DNA from: Micavibrio aeruginosavorus ARL-13
GTDB lineage: Bacteria; Pseudomonadota; Alphaproteobacteria; Micavibrionales; Micavibrionaceae
Assembly (NCBI RefSeq): GCF_000226315.1
Contig: NC_016026.1
Span: forward strand, 2,294,001-2,358,000
Length of the DNA stretch: 64,000 bases
Direction of reading: 5' to 3'
The position numbers were made by a program, and so were the translations under genes. Shown piece by piece: positions 35,738 to 53,980 of the stretch. Numbering within the stretch: position 1 is the stretch's first letter; every line of letters begins with the position of its first letter. The notes under the pieces were generated by a model. That model was given only the letters and a program-made list of their open reading frames with translations. It ran no database searches and was not told the origin of the DNA.

Positions 35738-35846
35738 TAGATCTCCCGTTTACGGAAGTTTTTTTCCCTGTTCAATTTGTCTCGCCGGTTAAGGCCTAAT
35801 AAAGTTACAATTAAGACGGATGGATTGTCAAAAAATTGCGCGGAAC

Positions 35847-35855
35847 TTATCCACA
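35847..35855 (+). promoter_or_regulatory. Perfect DnaA box upstream of aat
   Basis: TTATCCACA, the exact consensus nonamer, 38 bases before the aat ATG in an A/T-rich stretch. A single box could be chance; it is recorded because a second perfect box lies upstream of nrdA. Confidence 0.5.
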
Positions 35856-35892
35856 GAAAGCGTGCACATTATGGAATGTATCGGTTGATAGA

Positions 35893-36570
35893 ATGAGCGC
35901 AAACCCACCCATCACCATACAGGATGTTTTGACCGCCTATGCCATGGGCCTGTTCCCCATGGCCGAACGGGCGGATGAACAGGCCTTTTACTGGTATGAC
36001 CCGCCCTTGCGCGGGCAGATGGATATTGTCGGCCTGCATGTTCCGCGCTCGTTGAAAAAATTCGTTTTGAAATCCCCGTTCACCATCACGGTGGATCAGG
36101 ATTTCCCGGGCGTGATGGCCGGGTGTGCGGCACGCACCGATGACCGACCACAAACATGGATCAATGACGGCATCCGCACTTTGTTCACCGACTTGTACCG
36201 CGCGGGATTTGCCCATTCGGTGGAGGTGCGGGATGCGGGCGGTGCCTTGGTCGGCGGCCTTTACGGCCTGGCGATTGGCGCGGCGTTTTTTGGTGAAAGC
36301 ATGTTTTCGCGCGAATCCGGGGCCAGCAAAACCGCCCTGATCCATCTGTGCGCGCGGCTGTGGCGCGGGGGCTTTACCCTGCTGGACACCCAGTATTTGA
36401 ACCCGCATCTGGAACAATTCGGGGCCTATGAAATCCCCCGCGACCAGTATCTGGCCCGCCTGCATCAGGCCATCCCCCGCCCGGCAGATTTCAATTTGCG
36501 CCGGAATCCCGGGTTAAGCGAGGACCAGCTGGTCCGTGAGTGGTTCGCAATGCGCGCAACAAATCAGTGA
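35893..36570 (+). CDS. aat: Leucyl/phenylalanyl-tRNA--protein transferase
   Basis: Adds Leu or Phe to N-terminal Arg or Lys of proteins, creating N-degrons read by ClpS and degraded by ClpAP. The 225-residue protein has YAMGLFPMAE, WYDPPLRGQ, the FGESMFSRESGASKTAL core and LLDTQYLNPHLEQFGA. ClpS and ClpA are encoded in this window, so the whole N-end rule branch is present. The start at 35893 gives the family N-terminus. Confidence 0.96.
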   Translation: MSANPPITIQDVLTAYAMGLFPMAERADEQAFYWYDPPLRGQMDIVGLHVPRSLKKFVLKSPFTITVDQDFPGVMAGCAARTDDRPQTWINDGIRTLFTDLYRAGFAHSVEVRDAGGALVGGLYGLAIGAAFFGESMFSRESGASKTALIHLCARLWRGGFTLLDTQYLNPHLEQFGAYEIPRDQYLARLHQAIPRPADFNLRRNPGLSEDQLVREWFAMRATNQ

Positions 36571-38988: not shown

Positions 38989-39891
38989 CTAATCCGCGAC
39001 TTTCCCGGACAGGCCCTGCCACATCCGCACCATGTCCTGAGCCTGGTCGTGTTGGAGCTGTTCATAGGCGACGGAGCGTTGGGCTATGGGCTTGGCCACT
39101 TCGCCCTTGATCCGGTCCTCATCATCCCCGCCCATCATCGCCGCAATTTCAGCATGGGTCAGGGCATAGCAGACCTTCTCAATCCCGGCGCGAATGACCA
39201 GCGCCTGTCCCAGCATCGTGGGTTCGGAACTGCAATACAGGGTACAGCCCTTTAATTCGGTGCGGCCCAATTTTTCCGTGGCCCGGCGAATGGCCAGCAC
39301 CTCGGCATGGGCGGTGGGGTCGCAACGGGAGGTCACGCTGTTCACACCCTCGCCAATAATATGCCCATCAGCATCGGCCACAACCGCCCCGAACGGCCCG
39401 CCCAGACGCGACCGCGCGTTCTGGTGCGCCAGCGCAATGGCCCGCGCCATCAATTGATCGGGAGAATAGCCACGTTCAACACGGTGGGCACCGATGGCAT
39501 CCGGATTTTTGCCGTGCGACCGCAAGACACGGCGCACCACTTCGACCAGACGGTTGGGTTCGACGGGTTTACGCAGAACTTGCTTGATTTCATAACGACT
39601 GATTTCCAGCAGCAGATCGGTGCTGGGTTCATCCGTAATCATAATGATACCGAATGTGTGACCCTTGACCTGACAATGACGGGCGAAATCGAAGCCGGTT
39701 TTGGGCTGCATCGCCTGATCGACAATGGCGATGTCGATATTGCGTGTATCGGCAATGCGCGCCGCGGCCCCGCCATCGGCGGCGGTGACAACCTCATACC
39801 CGTTCATATACAGAAGCCCCGCGAGGTGATCGCGGTCGTCTTCGTTTTGTTCGGCAATCAAGACCTGAAGATTGTTGGAAACGCGGCTCAT
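38989..39891 (-). CDS. Response-regulator receiver domain fused to a guanine-deaminase-like domain lacking its zinc cysteines
   Basis: A 300-residue fusion. Residues 1-125 form a receiver domain with the phospho-acceptor D58 (DIAIVDQAM), T86 and K108 (LRKPVEPN). Residues 143-290 follow the guanine deaminase pattern: GGPFGAVVADADGHIIGEG, DPTAHAEVLAIRRA (zinc His H195, catalytic Glu E197) and KPIAQRSVAYEQL. The second zinc motif, EPCPMC in active enzymes, reads EPTMLG at 223-228, so both zinc cysteines are lost. It is probably catalytically inactive and may act as a phosphorylation-controlled binding domain; this is inference. Start at 39891 follows CAGGTG; a GTG at 39900 is possible. No histidine kinase is adjacent. 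Confidence 0.88.
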   Translation of the reverse strand: MSRVSNNLQVLIAEQNEDDRDHLAGLLYMNGYEVVTAADGGAAARIADTRNIDIAIVDQAMQPKTGFDFARHCQVKGHTFGIIMITDEPSTDLLLEISRYEIKQVLRKPVEPNRLVEVVRRVLRSHGKNPDAIGAHRVERGYSPDQLMARAIALAHQNARSRLGGPFGAVVADADGHIIGEGVNSVTSRCDPTAHAEVLAIRRATEKLGRTELKGCTLYCSSEPTMLGQALVIRAGIEKVCYALTHAEIAAMMGGDDEDRIKGEVAKPIAQRSVAYEQLQHDQAQDMVRMWQGLSGKVAD

Positions 39892-40040
39892 GAGAAACAC
39901 CTGAAAAAATTAGCGAGAAAAAGTGTAGTCCTTTTTATTTATTTGAAAAGCCTTGTTGAAACAGAAAGTCTCGGGTACCCTTTTTATAACAATGACGCAC
40001 CCATCTTATAAAAAACCGGGGCGTAAACAGGGAGAAGTAC

Positions 40041-40943
40041 ATGCTAGAAGACCGCAAGGGCGCACACAGCGCCTTCGATGCCGTTGCCGGAAACGATAAT
40101 CAATCCTCGGCCCCGGCCCCTACCACAGCGCCAGCCACACGCACCGCCTCGGCCCCCCTACCCACACCGCCCAATTATTTTAATCAGGTCGTATCCGCCG
40201 CGCCGCAGGAGCGTATCTTGATTTTGGAGGGGCCAATCACACAGGAACTGGCCATCACGCTGCGCCTGCATCTGCTGCGCATGGAAGCCGCCAGCCCGGA
40301 TGAGCCGATCACCATTATGATCAATTCGGGTGGTGGCTTGGTCACCGCCGGCATGGCAATTTATGACACAATTCAATCGCTGGAATGCCCGGTAAACACT
40401 TATGTCACCGGCATGGCTGCGTCCATGGCTTCCATCCTGTTGGTTGCGGGTACGCCCGGTGAGCGTCGCGCTGCGCCGAATGCCCGTATTATGATCCACC
40501 AGCCGTCTGGGGGATCACAGGGCAACGCCACGGAAATGGGCATCAGCCAGAACGAAATCGAACACACCTATCGCCGCATGGCCTGGGTGTACGCCGCCCA
40601 TGCGTTTGACGCGGCGAAAAGCCCGGCTTTTGACAAAAAAGTCGCGGACAAGATGGCCGATCTGCAAAAAACCGCCCCCACATCCGGTGGCACATGGACG
40701 CCGGATACATTGAAAATGACGGCGCTGGCGCATTTGTATCACGCCGTGATGAAGCAGGATTATTTCCTGTACGCCGAAGAAGCCAAGGATATGGGCCTGA
40801 TCGACAAGATCGAATATCCGGATATGAACATCAAACCCACAATGGACCCGAAACGCGCCAAGATATTACACCGCATTGCCGAGGCCGAACGTCTGGCCAA
40901 CAAGCATCACCGCGACAACCGCCCGGAACCGAGCGCGTTTTAA
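40041..40943 (+). CDS. Divergent ClpP-family serine protease
   Basis: A 300-residue ClpP homologue. The catalytic triad is intact: S128 (GMAASMASILL), H153 (ARIMIHQPSG), D240 (MKQDYFLYAEEA). Two parts are unusual: 45 N-terminal Ala/Pro-rich residues that look disordered, and a long insertion of 40 or so residues (about 190-233, KSPAFDKKVADKMADLQK and on) before the Asp strand. Usual ClpP has about 200 residues. It may work with one of the two ClpA proteins encoded 4-9 kb away. A second, ordinary clpP probably exists outside the window. GGGAG precedes the ATG; a terminator follows. Confidence 0.85.
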   Translation: MLEDRKGAHSAFDAVAGNDNQSSAPAPTTAPATRTASAPLPTPPNYFNQVVSAAPQERILILEGPITQELAITLRLHLLRMEAASPDEPITIMINSGGGLVTAGMAIYDTIQSLECPVNTYVTGMAASMASILLVAGTPGERRAAPNARIMIHQPSGGSQGNATEMGISQNEIEHTYRRMAWVYAAHAFDAAKSPAFDKKVADKMADLQKTAPTSGGTWTPDTLKMTALAHLYHAVMKQDYFLYAEEAKDMGLIDKIEYPDMNIKPTMDPKRAKILHRIAEAERLANKHHRDNRPEPSAF

Positions 40944-43421: not shown

Positions 43422-43566
43422 ATGATTTTCCCCTTTAAAACGGGCGGTCATTGTGGGATTTCAAAGACAGAAGGATGGGCGCTACGCAAACGCGAAAATC
43501 GGTCATTATCGTACCTTTTTTCAACGCCATGGACATGGTGTTTTTGATACTGGTAGAATCGTGCGT

Positions 43567-44301
43567 ATGAAACCATTTATTCCACCGCACCGCGAATCAG
43601 AACGCGGCAGCGTTTTAATTTATATCTTTATCGCCATCGCCGTTCTGGCCGCGCTGAGCTTTGCCGTATCCAGGTCGGGGCGGGAAAGTGCGCAAACCAT
43701 CAACAAGGAACGCGCCGATTTATGGGCTACGGAATTGTTCGATTATTCGAACATGCTGCGCCGTGCGGTCACGACATTGACGATTACGGGTCTGACGGAA
43801 AACGATGTGTGCTTCCATGATTCCGGGTGGGACGACAACAGTTATCAATTCTCCACCGCCTGCCCCACCGCCAATCTGGTGTTCAGCCAGCTGGGTGGCG
43901 GCGCGACATTCCAGAACCCGAATTACAATCTGCTAGATTCCAGCTATTCCACGGACCCCGCCTATAAAAAATGGCATATCACTGGCGCCAACAGTGTCGC
44001 CGGGGTCGGCACCGATTGTTCCCCGACGGGACCGTGTAATGAATTGCTGGCCGTGTTGCCCTTTGTCCGGCGTGAGGCCTGTATCGCCGTGAATTCCAAA
44101 CTGGGCATCACCGATGATTTGACCGAGCCGCCGCAGGATGACGCCGGTTTTGACCTGAGCGTGCCGTTCAAGGGGTCATACCCAAATGGCGAATCCATCA
44201 ACACCGCCACGCTGGATGGCAAGCGGGTCGGATGTTTTAAGGGCAATGGCGGGGTCATTGACGACGCCTATGTGTTTTACAGTGTCCTGATCGCACGATA
44301 G
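43567..44301 (+). CDS. Pilin-like single-pass exported protein P2
   Basis: A 244-residue paralogue of P1 and P3. The leader MKPFIPPHRESERG is followed by VLIYIFIAIAVLAALSFAV, a pilin-like hydrophobic helix with conserved ESERGSV. The outer part has Cys at about 99, 113, 154, 161, 176 and 226, and shares with P1 and P3 the core LLAVLPFVRREACIAVNSKL and the ending YVFYSVLIAR. P1 and P2 also share PPQD about 15-20 residues past this core. It is alone, between the DUF2157 set and clpA2, with its own terminator. Function unknown. Confidence 0.8.
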   Translation: MKPFIPPHRESERGSVLIYIFIAIAVLAALSFAVSRSGRESAQTINKERADLWATELFDYSNMLRRAVTTLTITGLTENDVCFHDSGWDDNSYQFSTACPTANLVFSQLGGGATFQNPNYNLLDSSYSTDPAYKKWHITGANSVAGVGTDCSPTGPCNELLAVLPFVRREACIAVNSKLGITDDLTEPPQDDAGFDLSVPFKGSYPNGESINTATLDGKRVGCFKGNGGVIDDAYVFYSVLIAR

Positions 44302-44354: not shown

Positions 44355-46724
44355 TTATTTCGGCGTCATTTCATTGCTACGACGGCGCGTTTTTCCCGGC
44401 TTGGCCGCCGCTGGATTATTGTCATTGGCCACAGCAGCATCGTTGAACAGGAAGCGCAGCTTTTTATCCTGGCCCTGTCCTTCGGTATCCACCAGAACCG
44501 CACCACCCTTGGCCAGCTCACCAAACAAAACCTGGCGCGCCAGCGGCGTGCTGATCTCGGTCTGGATCAGGCGGCCCATCGGACGGGCCCCCATGTCACG
44601 GTTATAACCCTTGGTGGCCAGATAGTCGCGAGCATCGGCGCTCAGGTCGATTTTGACATTCCGTTCCGCCAGCTGACCACCCAAGATCTTGACAAATTTA
44701 TCAACGATCGAGCCCATCGTTTCCGGCTTCAGGTAATCAAAACGGATTTGCGCATCCATGCGGTTGCGGAATTCCGGCGGCAGGAATTGGCTCACCTCAT
44801 CCGCGCGCAGAACTTCTTCGCGCGTTTCGGTATGGAACCCGATGCCCTGAACCTTTTTGACTTCGGCATCGCGCAAGTTGCTGGTCATGATCAAAATCAC
44901 GTTGCGGAAATCCGTGGTCTTGCCATGGGAATCCGTCAAACGCCCATCATCCATCACCTGCAACAGGGCTTTCAGAACATCCGGGTGGGCTTTTTCAATT
45001 TCATCGAGCAACAGCACGCAGTTATTGTGCTTGGTCACGGCATTGGTCAGCTCGCCGCCCTCATCATGGCCGACATAGCCCGGGGGTGACCCGACCAGGC
45101 GCGCAACAGTATGTTTCTCCTGAAATTCAGACATATCAAAGCGCACCAATTGCGTGCCCAGCGTTGCCGCCAGCTGTTTCGCCATTTCGGTCTTGCCCAC
45201 ACCCGTTGGACCGGTGAACAGATAACTGCCCTTCGGTTTATTCAGGTCACGCAGGCCAGCCTGAGCCAGCAATACGGCATCGGTCAGGGCATCAATCGCG
45301 GCATCTTGCTGGAACACGGCCTGGCGCAGATCGGAATCCAGCGTGCGCAGTTTTTCCAGCCCGTCGCCCGACAATTCCTTTTTCGGCAGGCGCTTGATAC
45401 GGGCGACAGTGTCTTCCATCTCATCCTTGTCGATCACGTTCGTGGCGCGTGGTTCAACGATACGGTGCGCGGCGGCCCCATCCAGCAAATCAATTGCCTT
45501 GTCCGGCAACTGGCGATCCGTCATATACCGGACCGACAATTTCACCGCGGCTTCAATCGCTTCATCGGTATAGGTCACACCGTGGAAGGTTTCGTAATGT
45601 TTCTTCAGACCTTTCAGAATTTCGATGGCCTGTGCCGGGGTCGGTTCGGCCACATCGATTTTCTGGAAGCGACGGCTCATCGCCGCGTCTTTTTCGAAAT
45701 ATTTGCTGTATTCGGCATACGTCGTCGCCCCAACGCAACGCACCCGACCACTGGACAGATACGGTTTCATAATGTTGGCCGCATCCATCTTGCTGTCACT
45801 GCCCGTACCGGCGCCGATCAGCATGTGGATTTCATCGACGAACAAGATAGCGCCCGGGGTCAATTCCAGCTGGGTCAAAACGGCCTTCAGGCGTTTTTCA
45901 AAATCACCACGATATTTCGATCCCGCGGTCATCGCCGTCAAATCGAGCGAATACAATGTCGCGCCCAGCAATTGGTCCGGCACATTGCCATTCACGATAT
46001 CCATCGCCAGCCCTTCGGCCACCGCCGTTTTACCAACGCCGGGTTCACCCACCAGAATAGGGTTGTTTTTCTTACGACGGGCCAGGACCTCAATCGTCTG
46101 GTTAATTTCATTCTGACGCGCCAGGACTGGATCAATTTTGCCCGAGGCAGCCAGTTCGTTCAGGTTCACCGCAAACTGTTCCAACGGCGGACGTTCGTCC
46201 TCTTCTTCCTCACCCTGCTGTGACGCCGGGTTCTTGCGCTTGCTCAGGCCATAATTATCCGTCGCCGCGGCATCTTTCGGATTCACCGTCGTTCCGTGGG
46301 TCAGGAAATTATCCAGCGTTTCGGCGCTGCCGATGCCATGTTTTTCCAACAGATACGCGGCATTTGAACCGCGTTCGCGCATCAAGGCCAGCAACAGCGA
46401 TTTGCTGTTGGCAATGGTGCCCGGGTTTTTGGTCGTGTTCTCGTAATAGACGCGATTCAAAATCGTGCCCATCGCGCTGCTTTTTTCCAGGTCGATATCC
46501 TGCAGCGGGCGCGGGTTGACATCGAAATGTTCGACGATGAAATGCTCCGCCTCTTCCTTGATCTTGGCAACATCCACTTTCAGTGCACTGAAAACGGTTT
46601 TGCAATCGGGATCATCCAGCAACGCCAACAACAAATGTTCCGGCATCATGATCTGGTTGCCGTGTGCGATGGCGATGTCCTGTGTGCGCAATAAGGTGAG
46701 GCGCATATTTTCAGATTGTTCCAT
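44355..46724 (-). CDS. Second ClpA-type unfoldase (divergent paralogue)
   Basis: A 789-residue AAA+ unfoldase with the same plan as ClpA: ClpN repeats (1-145), an acidic linker with EEEEDE near 172-177, D1 with Walker A GEPGVGKTAVAE (226-237), and D2 with [12 protein letters not shown]. The ClpP-docking loop motif is IGFH. Against the neighbouring clpA, the N-domain, the linker and the C-terminal 40 residues (basic tail ending KPGKTRRRSNEMTPK) differ most, so it probably recognises other substrates or adaptors. It is separated from clpA by 217 bases with a hairpin, so it has its own promoter. Confidence 0.92.
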   Translation of the reverse strand: MEQSENMRLTLLRTQDIAIAHGNQIMMPEHLLLALLDDPDCKTVFSALKVDVAKIKEEAEHFIVEHFDVNPRPLQDIDLEKSSAMGTILNRVYYENTTKNPGTIANSKSLLLALMRERGSNAAYLLEKHGIGSAETLDNFLTHGTTVNPKDAAATDNYGLSKRKNPASQQGEEEEDERPPLEQFAVNLNELAASGKIDPVLARQNEINQTIEVLARRKKNNPILVGEPGVGKTAVAEGLAMDIVNGNVPDQLLGATLYSLDLTAMTAGSKYRGDFEKRLKAVLTQLELTPGAILFVDEIHMLIGAGTGSDSKMDAANIMKPYLSSGRVRCVGATTYAEYSKYFEKDAAMSRRFQKIDVAEPTPAQAIEILKGLKKHYETFHGVTYTDEAIEAAVKLSVRYMTDRQLPDKAIDLLDGAAAHRIVEPRATNVIDKDEMEDTVARIKRLPKKELSGDGLEKLRTLDSDLRQAVFQQDAAIDALTDAVLLAQAGLRDLNKPKGSYLFTGPTGVGKTEMAKQLAATLGTQLVRFDMSEFQEKHTVARLVGSPPGYVGHDEGGELTNAVTKHNNCVLLLDEIEKAHPDVLKALLQVMDDGRLTDSHGKTTDFRNVILIMTSNLRDAEVKKVQGIGFHTETREEVLRADEVSQFLPPEFRNRMDAQIRFDYLKPETMGSIVDKFVKILGGQLAERNVKIDLSADARDYLATKGYNRDMGARPMGRLIQTEISTPLARQVLFGELAKGGAVLVDTEGQGQDKKLRFLFNDAAVANDNNPAAAKPGKTRRRSNEMTPK

Positions 46725-46941: not shown

Positions 46942-49242
46942 CTAGTCCTGGTCGATTTTCTCACGGGCACCGGATTTGCGGGCCTCTTCATAATCGAAAA
47001 TCAGCTCACCGCCCTTGAAATCGACATGGGCGACGCCGCCCTTGGTCAATTTGCCGAATAACAATTCCTCGGCCAGCGGGCGTTTGATTTTTTCCTGAAT
47101 GACACGCGCCAACGGACGCGCACCCATGGCCGGGTCATAACCGATTTCGGCCAGATGGGCGCGGGCCTCATCCGACAGGACGATGGTCACATCACGATCG
47201 GCCAATTGGGCTTCCAGTTGAATGACGAATTTATCAACGACACGCGCCACGGTTTCCGGCTTCAAATTCTGGAACGGCACAATGGCATCCAGGCGGTTGC
47301 GGAATTCCGGCGTGAACAGGCGACGGATTTCATCATTGTCACCATCAATTTCCATGGTGCGGCCAAACCCGATCGGCGATTTCGCCATCTGGGCCGCGCC
47401 CGCATTGGTCGTCATAATCAAAATGACGTTGCGGAAATCAACCGTTTTCCCGTTGTTATCGGTCAGTTTGCCGTAGTCCATGACCTGCAGCAAAATGTTG
47501 TACAGGTCCGGATGGGCCTTTTCAATTTCATCCAGCAGCAACACGCAATGCGGGTTCTGGTCAATCGCATCGGTCAGCAAGCCACCCTGTTCAAAGCCAA
47601 CATAGCCCGGCGGCGTACCGATCAAACGGGACACCGAATGCTTCTCCATATATTCCGACATGTCGAAGCGTTTCAATTCAACGCCGAGCGATTTGGCCAG
47701 TTGCCGCGCCACTTCGGTTTTACCAACCCCGGTGGGGCCGCTGAACAGATACGACCCAATCGGTTTTTCCGCATCGCGCAGACCCGCGCGCGCCATTTTG
47801 ATGGAATCGGACAGCACCGCAATCGCCTGATCCTGGTCGTACACCATGGTTTTCAGGTCGCGATCGAGATTCTTCAACAATGTGCGATCGTCTTTGTTCA
47901 CCGCCTTGGCCGGAATGCGCGCGATCACCGCGATCACATCCTCAATATCCTTCACATTGATGGTTTTCTTGCGTTTTGACGCCGGCACCAGCATCTGGGC
48001 CGCACCAACTTCGTCGATAATATCAATCGCCTTGTCCGGCAATTTGCGATCACCAATATAGCGGGCAGAGAGCTCCACCGCCGCCTTGATCGCATCATTG
48101 GTGTATTTCACATTGTGGTGTTCTTCGTAATAAGGCTTCAGCCCTTTCAGAATTTTGATCGCATCCTCGATGCTCGGTTCCTTCACATCGATTTTCTGGA
48201 ACCGGCGGACCAGCGCGCGGTCCTTTTCAAAATGATTGCGGTATTCCTTGTACGTCGTCGACCCGATGCAGCGCAAAGACCCGTTCGACAAGGCCGGTTT
48301 CAACAGGTTCGACGCATCCATCGCCCCGCCCGACGTGGCCCCAGCGCCAATCACGGTGTGAATTTCATCGATAAACAGAACGGCGTTATCAACCTTTTCA
48401 ATTTCGCCCAGAACGGCCTTCAACCGCTCTTCGAAATCACCGCGATAACGCGTACCCGCCAGCAACGCACCCATATCCAGCGCATAAATCACGGCGGTTT
48501 TCAAAACGTCTGGCACTTCGCCATCGACAATGCGTTTGGCCAACCCTTCGGCAATGGCGGTTTTACCAACGCCCGGATCACCCACATAAAGCGGGTTGTT
48601 TTTCGACCGGCGACAGAGAATTTGCACCGTGCGATCAACCTCTTCATGGCGGCCAATCAGCGGGTCGATCTTGCCGCGCCGCGCCTTGTTGTTCAAATTG
48701 GTGCAATAGGTTTCCAGCGCATCGCGCCCCGGCTTGGCATTCTTGTCATCACCGGAAGCGGATTCACCCGGTTCGGTGCCCTCGGGCGGGCGGATTTCGC
48801 TCTGTCCCGGCACCTTGGCGATGCCGTGGGAAATGTAATTCACCGCATCAAAGCGGGTCATGTCCATTTCCTGCAGGAAATGGACCGCATTGGATTCACG
48901 TTCCGAGAACATGGCGACCAGCACATTGGCGCCGGTCACTTCCTCACGCCCCGAGGATTGCACATGGATCGCCGCGCGTTGCAAAACGCGCTGGAACGCC
49001 GTGGTCGGTTTGGATTCTTCGCCGTTGCGATTGACCAGATAGGTCAGTTCATTGTCCAGATAATGCGCCAGCTGATCCTTCAGATCCGGCAGCGAAATGC
49101 CGCAGGACCGCAATACCGCCATCGCATCCTGATCATCGGTCAGGGCCAGCAGTAAATGCTCCAGCGTCGCATATTCATGGCCGTGATCATTGGCCAGAGC
49201 CAGAGCGCGGTGGAGCGTTTTTTCAAGATTGCGTGAGAGCAT
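46942..49242 (-). CDS. clpA: ATP-dependent Clp protease ATP-binding subunit ClpA
   Basis: Unfoldase that feeds substrates to ClpP and takes N-degron substrates from ClpS. The 766-residue protein has two ClpN repeats (1-140), D1 with Walker [13 protein letters not shown] (221-232), D2 with [12 protein letters not shown], and the ClpP-docking IGFGR loop. It follows clpS on the same strand after 167 bases, as in most Alphaproteobacteria. The adjacent second ClpA is unusual. Confidence 0.96.
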
Positions 49243-49409: not shown

Positions 49410-49868
49410 TTATTCCTTCTCCATCGTGCATTGGAGGGGTTGTTCGCTGGCGCGGGCGAAGTCCATCACCTGGGCCACTTTGGTTTCGGCAACTTCGTAC
49501 GTGAAGATGCCACAGATGCCGACACCGCGGCGGTGAACATGCAACATGATGTCGGTGGCTTCCTGACGGTTCTTGGAAAAAAACCGTTCCAGAACGTGGA
49601 CGACAAATTCCATCGGCGTGTAATCGTCGTTCAACAACAACACCTTGTACATGGACGGCTTTTTCGTCTTTGGCCGGGGTTTGAGCAACAGGCCAGCCTG
49701 ACGCCGTTCCTCGCCCTCACCATCATCGGGCAGATCGTCCCCATGATCGTCCCCCATACCATTGATCAGGTCGCCAAAATGCGGCCCGAAAAACGGTCGG
49801 GGATCGTTGGCATCATCATGGGCCATCAGCCAGAAATCCATATCGTCTTCAATCCAAAAACTGGTCAT
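49410..49868 (-). CDS. clpS: Clp protease adaptor ClpS with a long N-terminal extension
   Basis: Adaptor that binds N-degrons and delivers them to ClpA. The core (residues about 62-148) has [40 protein letters not shown] and [20 protein letters not shown], all typical. About 60 acidic residues precede it ([33 protein letters not shown]), so the protein has 152 residues against about 105-115 usual. Start at 49868 lacks a good ribosome binding site; internal ATGs at 49841 or later are possible, so the extension may be shorter. Confidence 0.94.
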
Positions 49869-53290: not shown

Positions 53291-53980
53291 ATGCAGCAAA
53301 AACGCAACCCATCACGCCCCCAATCTGGCGAATCCGGTAACGTGATCTTCTTCATCTTGCTGGGGATTGCGCTGATTGGCCTGGTGACGGCCGCCTTGCG
53401 ATCCGGCGGATCGGAAAGCGCGAATATCGACGCCGAACAAATGGTCATCAAGGTGTCCCAGGTGCAGCAAAATGCCAGCGCACTGGCGCGCGCCACGGAA
53501 GTTGCGTACCAGAATGTGCGCGAAGAATCCGCCATCAGCTTCGCCCATCCGGACGCACACAGCGATTACGGCACATACGGCACCACCCCATCCGCCGAAG
53601 TGTTTCATGTCCAGGGCGGTGGCGCGGATTATCTGGACCCGCCCGCCGGAATCAATGACGGTACGGCCTGGCAATTTTACGGCACGACTGCCGCGCCGGA
53701 TGTGGGAACGGATGCTGCCGATCTGATCGCCGTTTTGCCCAATGTCACGCCAGAATTTTGCACAGCCATGAATAAATCACTGGGGCAATTGGGCGCGACC
53801 AATGATACGGGCACCTGTGTCTATGATTCATCGGGTGTGCGTTTCAGCGGCGTGTTTGCCGTCGCGCCGAATACGATGGATGGATCCAGCTTTACCTTTA
53901 CCCCCGCACCGCAAGCGTGCGTTACCTGCACCGGGGCCGGCAATACGCAGCATTTTTACAAGGTTATTCTGGCGCGTTAA
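53291..53980 (+). CDS. Pilin-like single-pass exported protein P3
   Basis: A 229-residue paralogue of P1 and P2. The leader ends SGESGNV, then the helix IFFILLGIALIGLVTAAL. The core LIAVLPNVTPEFCTAMNKSL and the ending HFYKVILAR match P1 and P2; GGGADYLDPP corresponds to GGGATFQNPN of P2. Four Cys lie in the last 75 residues, two as CVTC. Unlike P1 and P2, it may be co-transcribed with the SDR gene ending three bases upstream. It is convergent with the FlgO-like gene. Function unknown. Confidence 0.8.
   Translation: MQQKRNPSRPQSGESGNVIFFILLGIALIGLVTAALRSGGSESANIDAEQMVIKVSQVQQNASALARATEVAYQNVREESAISFAHPDAHSDYGTYGTTPSAEVFHVQGGGADYLDPPAGINDGTAWQFYGTTAAPDVGTDAADLIAVLPNVTPEFCTAMNKSLGQLGATNDTGTCVYDSSGVRFSGVFAVAPNTMDGSSFTFTPAPQACVTCTGAGNTQHFYKVILAR

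Follow-up and report, generated by a model that had tools for sequence, protein, structure and literature searches.

The window analyzed here is a stretch of 64,000 nucleotides from the alphaproteobacterium Micavibrio aeruginosavorus ARL-13, a predator with an epibiotic way of life (PMC3189940). A minus-strand gene at 38989..39891 (ATG at 39891, stop at 38989-38991) encodes a 300-residue protein; were translation to begin at the alternative GTG at 39900, the product would have 303 residues. Residues 10-119 (39535..39864, minus strand) match the Pfam receiver family Response_reg (PF00072) at 56.3 bits against a curated cut-off of 30.2 bits, and residues 145-243 match dCMP_cyt_deam_1 (PF00383) at 66.8 bits against a cut-off of 25 bits. 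The second domain spans residues 142-297 (39001..39468, minus strand), for which the top PDB sequence matches given by phmmer were B. subtilis guanine deaminase (GuaD) entries 1wkq and 1tiy (E 3.4e-25). These matches bear out the preliminary description of this DNA, which had proposed a receiver fused to a guanine-deaminase-like domain that aligns along the length of the enzyme. The fold agrees as well: the deaminase half of an AF2 model superimposed on 1tiy with a Z score of 22.1 and an rmsd of 1.9 Å over 156 residues, and its block pLDDT values were about 79-97 from residue 141 onward. Note that only GuaD rows entered the AF2 alignment, which accounts for the poor modeling of the receiver half (blocks with pLDDT 32-67), and that this half was left unused. 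The preliminary description gave no strand and omitted both the E14-Q15 pair of the receiver and the clpS-clpA neighborhood.

The residues that it had listed are all present. Alignment placed the predicted phospho-acceptor Asp of the receiver at D58 (39718..39720), the switch residue at T86 (39634-39636) and the Lys at K108 (39568-39570), with Q15 (39847..39849) replacing the second acidic, Mg2+-binding residue; all are on the minus strand. In the deaminase half, H195-A196-E197 (39301..39309, minus strand) retains the His ligand and the catalytic Glu of GuaD, whereas the EPCPMC motif reads EPTMLG (residues 223-228; 39208..39225, minus strand). This region aligns to GuaD without gaps, with C83 of the B. 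subtilis enzyme falling on T225 and C86 on G228, the two zinc-Cys sites. The PCxxC zinc motif that defines GuaD is thus missing and, judged by that motif, the window protein is not a guanine deaminase. Its likeness to GuaD, a member of the cytidine deaminase superfamily, nevertheless extends over the whole length of the fold at about 35-45% identity and includes the HAE, GGPFG and DPTAHAE segments. Besides lacking the cysteines, the window protein differs from GuaD in its N-terminally fused receiver, in having neither an FDD motif nor a Trp where GuaD has W92, and in carrying Asp instead of the C-terminal Tyr.

Relatives were compared within the order, in which the family of the window organism is coded f1 and the other families f2, f3 and f5; the window genome is coded G000 and its sister species G002. 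The same fusion was found in 42 of the 104 f1 genomes, plus one copy truncated at a contig end, and strong matches to it, fragments counted, occur in 24 f1 genera. Both cysteines are absent from all 43 f1 fusions. Position 225 is Thr in each of the 43 deaminase sequences and position 228 is Gly in 40, Ser in two and Ala in one, whereas both sites are Cys in 23/23 GuaD proteins and in 9/9 f3 fusions. Fusions with an intact EPCPMC motif, namely the nine of f3 and four of the five of f5, are confined to other families of the order. The His is kept in 42 of the 43 f1 sequences and the Glu in every one. In the deaminase tree the f1 fusions form a single clade with support of 100/99. The fusion genes of G000 and G002 differ by four amino-acid replacements and about 100 silent substitutions, and dN/dS is 0.007 whether taken over the entire gene or over either half, a ratio equaled among the neighboring genes only by MlaD and a citramalate/isopropylmalate-synthase-like gene. 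Local decay and sequencing error are ruled out by this ratio and by the 43 of 43 relatives without the cysteines, and the earlier view that the domain is a pseudo-deaminase rather than a decayed copy has held. One f5 fusion (G046; L164 and L219) has independently lost HAE and both cysteines (DPTSKAV and EPEPMS) and has a shortened receiver.

When active and dead forms were compared at a threshold of at least 80%, 30 deaminase positions were fixed to the same residue in both, 14 were fixed to different residues (including C225T, C228G, W234S, N244L and Y300D) and 19 that are fixed in the active form were relaxed in the dead form. Because 14 positions have been refixed while 30 stay fixed, the pattern argues for changed function and not for decay. 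H246 is newly conserved in the dead form (37/43). The FDD motif, the conserved Trp and the C-terminal Tyr of GuaD are changed or relaxed in the f1 fusions; at position 234 the family has Ser in place of the Trp, and the window protein has Arg. The equivalents of these three features in the alignment are W92, D114 and Y156 of B. subtilis GuaD, which we take to serve guanine binding. GGPFG, N184, H195, E197 and P224 remain 81-100% conserved despite the loss of the zinc site, which argues that the pocket is under selection. The binding of a purine, raised in the preliminary description, therefore stands only in part: N184, H195, E197 and GGPFG are still there, but with the Trp, the FDD motif and the C-terminal Tyr lost, binding of guanine in the old GuaD mode is unlikely. 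From the sequence comparisons we conclude that the fusion is a conserved pseudoenzyme, predicted to have undergone a single loss of zinc binding and guanine recognition in the common ancestor of the f1 fusions, and that the putatively non-catalytic domain was then retained under strong selection.

The receiver has the phospho-Asp, switch Thr and Lys set in addition to its Pfam match, but of the acidic pair (E14-Q15) only the first acid is retained. In CheY the second acid binds Mg2+. That residue is Asp in 36 of 42 f1 members, and Gln was seen only in G000 and G002. The complete set of acidic pair (E-D), Asp, Thr and Lys is found in 33 of the 42. The phospho-Asp is missing from four of the nearest fusions (G025, G013, G122 and G123) and from the receiver-only relative G018. 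Phosphorylation, which had been called likely, is plausible across the family; the Q15 substitution and the losses of phospho-Asp in near relatives make it doubtful as the means of control in the Micavibrio lineage. The best NCBIfam match of the receiver was CpdR (40.1 bits, cut-off 180), and the RssB model matched only the receiver (36.4 bits, cut-off 329), so by these models the window protein is neither RssB nor CpdR.

The fusion lies among genes for Clp proteolysis. A gene for a divergent ClpP-like protease, the second ClpP of the genome, lies next to it and is divergently oriented (40041..40943, plus strand; PF00574, 167.5 bits), the main ClpP being encoded elsewhere. The ClpP-like protein has 300 residues with an extra N terminus and scores below the ClpP equivalog cut-off. 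Its gene adjoins the locus only in G000, G002, G025, G123 and G018, and in most of these the receiver acids are degenerate or missing as well. On the other side of it, on the minus strand, are ClpA2, a second, divergent ClpA-like ATPase (44355..46724; TIGR02639, 886.8 bits, below the cut-off of 993), ClpA (46942..49242; 1122 bits, above that cut-off) and ClpS, the N-degron adaptor of ClpAP (49410..49868; PF02617, 123 bits; NF000669 above cut-off). The two ClpA genes are in tandem in the window, and further ClpA-like copies were found in G001, G003, G004 and G017. Aat, the leucyl/phenylalanyl-tRNA-protein transferase that makes N-degrons, is encoded at 35836..36570 (plus strand; PF03588) and belongs to the same f1 block. 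The fusion is separated from ClpA2 by 4.5 kb and several genes. The plus-strand gene at 43453-44301 encodes a protein with a short hydrophobic pilin-like N-terminal segment and no Pfam match, and in most f1 genomes relatives of it (c3) occupy the interval that separates clpA from the fusion; a second protein with such a segment is encoded at 53291-53980 (plus strand).

The association with clpA recurs in other families. All nine f3 loci have the order clpS-clpA-fusion on one strand, with a gap of 30-93 bp after clpA. Among the 42 f1 fusion loci ClpA is encoded upstream within 5 kb in 28, the fusion always being on the downstream side of ClpA and on the same strand in 25. ClpA was not found near the other 14, of which five have a short flank on one side or both and nine have flanks longer than 8.8 kb in each direction. 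The five f5 fusions, some with short flanks, are all away from clpA. The f1 linkage is not independent evidence because the whole block, DacA-ClpS-ClpA-fusion-NDUFA12-MlaD-Aat with DUF2155 also present, is syntenic, and the weight is carried by the comparison across families. The occupant of the slot varies in that comparison. Three genomes of f3 genus g40 (L225-L227) have an intact GuaD without a receiver directly downstream of clpS-clpA; f2 genome G042 (L209) has a receiver without GuaD after clpA; and f1 genomes G018, G029 and G060 have a receiver alone there. The g40 GuaD could be the source of the fusion or the product of its loss. The f3 fusions share the architecture and the slot of the window protein but differ in their intact EPCPMC motif, presumably with activity, and in their receivers, which often lack the switch Thr. 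No Clp linkage was seen at 17 standalone alphaproteobacterial guaD loci, each with only about 1.5 kb of flank, and guaD standing alone outside the order (97 loci) was near a ClpA-like gene once and near a ClpP twice.

The output of the Caulobacter protein PopA is a degenerate GGDEF domain. Three known regulators of ClpXP resemble the window protein. RssB, the adaptor for sigma S, consists of a receiver plus a PP2C-fold domain without active-site residues that binds both the substrate and ClpX (PMC7226468). It shares with the window protein an N-terminal receiver and a dead-enzyme effector, but its enzyme fold is another one, and the window protein is linked by gene position to ClpS-ClpA and not to ClpX. 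CpdR, a ClpXP adaptor of the Alphaproteobacteria that consists of a receiver alone, primes the protease, and ClpXP has another adaptor in PopA, an effector that binds c-di-GMP (PMC11519897, PMC8973945). CpdR is matched by the receiver-only relatives in the same clpSA slot, although the window receiver falls far below the CpdR cut-off and is followed by an extra domain of 170 residues. PopA is alike in being an effector-type protein that acts on a Clp protease (PMC8973945) but has other domains and is confined to relatives of Caulobacter.

Given its RssB-like build and its location by a Clp ATPase gene, we tentatively propose, with somewhat less than even confidence, that the window protein is an adaptor or regulator of the neighboring ClpS-ClpA(-ClpP) protease. 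The analysis establishes the domain make-up, the conserved loss of the catalytic site, the selection and the gene linkage; a physical interaction with Clp, an adaptor function and a role for the receiver are our inference from linkage and architecture. In this model a substrate, ClpA or ClpS, or a small ligand would dock on the dead deaminase domain, whose conformation would be set by the receiver; phosphorylation would drive this in the majority of the family, whereas in the Micavibrio lineage the receiver would probably act unphosphorylated. The logic of RssB and PopA on ClpXP would thereby be transferred to ClpA. Consistent with this proposal are the single, fully conserved loss of the cysteines under strong constraint, the linkage in both f3 and f1 with GuaD alone or a receiver alone also found in the slot, the lack of such linkage at the 17 short-flanked standalone guaD loci of Alphaproteobacteria, the divergently adjacent second ClpP-like gene of this lineage, the lack of a GuaD partner in the window genome, and the RssB, CpdR and PopA precedents. 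Against it are the block synteny in f1, the nine long-flank f1 loci and five f5 fusions away from ClpA, the genes between the window fusion and ClpA2, the absence of the fusion from more than half of the f1 genomes, the apparently active enzyme in the f3 slot and the relatives that keep only a receiver.

Several of these objections suit an atypical response regulator of the ordinary kind, with a dead domain that binds some protein outside the Clp system and a clpSA neighborhood that is inherited gene order. Block synteny and the fusions away from clpA favor this alternative, yet the clpS-clpA link recurs in three families while the slot occupant changes (receiver, GuaD or fusion), and in f3 the slot is immediately downstream of clpA on the same strand; we consider it unlikely, though a serious competitor. 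A sensor of purines or nucleotides, in which the pocket would bind a ligand without turnover and signal through the receiver or a partner, is the other main alternative; it is compatible with a Clp role, given that PopA binds c-di-GMP, and would account for the conserved pocket, but it must contend with the missing Trp, FDD and Tyr and is improbable. That the protein is still an enzyme, through other metal ligands or a different chemistry, draws on the retained His and Glu and on the newly conserved T225 (43) and H246; the loss of both Cys ligands and of the conserved Trp, FDD and C-terminal Tyr, and a G228 with no side chain able to bind metal, leave it with very little probability. Comparably remote is a role as the inactive partner in a complex with a working deaminase. 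CDA-fold proteins dimerize, ADAT3 is the non-catalytic partner of ADAT2 (PMC7713142), and G013 has the dead fusion alongside an intact GuaD, but no GuaD is encoded in the window genome, where the remaining PF00383 matches are a TadA-like protein and two others. A gene decaying on its way out, as the secondary losses of the deaminase half and the majority of f1 genomes without the fusion might suggest, is scarcely credible against the dN/dS ratio, a single old loss maintained across the family and the contrary substitution pattern.

Returning to the Clp regulator proposal, we hold more loosely an evolutionary extension of it: that protease adaptors built from a receiver plus a dead enzyme, as in RssB and PopA, evolved independently once more in this protein, which would be the first of them for ClpA/ClpS and the first made from a nucleobase deaminase, and that the chemistry of an active receiver-deaminase beside clpSA was lost in the ancestor of the Micavibrio family. 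Directly after clpS-clpA, this one order has a receiver by itself, a deaminase by itself and fusions both active and dead, and living and dead relatives of a pseudoenzyme sharing one genomic slot are rare. If the Clp link is functional, the locus would offer a testable case of an enzyme that came to regulate proteolysis, and a way into the protein turnover of an obligate predator of bacteria.

Outside the order, sampled genomes (385 of the class and 398 of the phylum, partly overlapping) contained only standalone GuaD and no fusion. Horizontal or phage origin was rejected on this ground and on the lack of a full-length match among phages or plasmids. A Prevotella fusion hinted at by long tblastn spans (L038, L044 and L069) proved to be ordinary GuaD frames, and the deaminase downstream of clpA in G026 (L272) is TadA-like. 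The placement of TadA within the deaminase tree was taken as a long-branch artifact and not used, and the receiver tree, which bears on one versus two origins of the f1 and f3 fusions, also has long branches. Our literature searches found no paper on a receiver-guanine-deaminase fusion. Receiver-only genes occupy the f1 locus in G018, G023, G029 and G060. Their nesting within the f1 fusions shows that G018 and G023 have lost the deaminase half; since such relatives keep the receiver alone, the dead domain is dispensable in some of them. Elsewhere in the window genome, a 339-residue protein (L296, G000:C1:2381537-2381818) has a cytidine-deaminase-type match that is weak and falls short of the Pfam cut-off.
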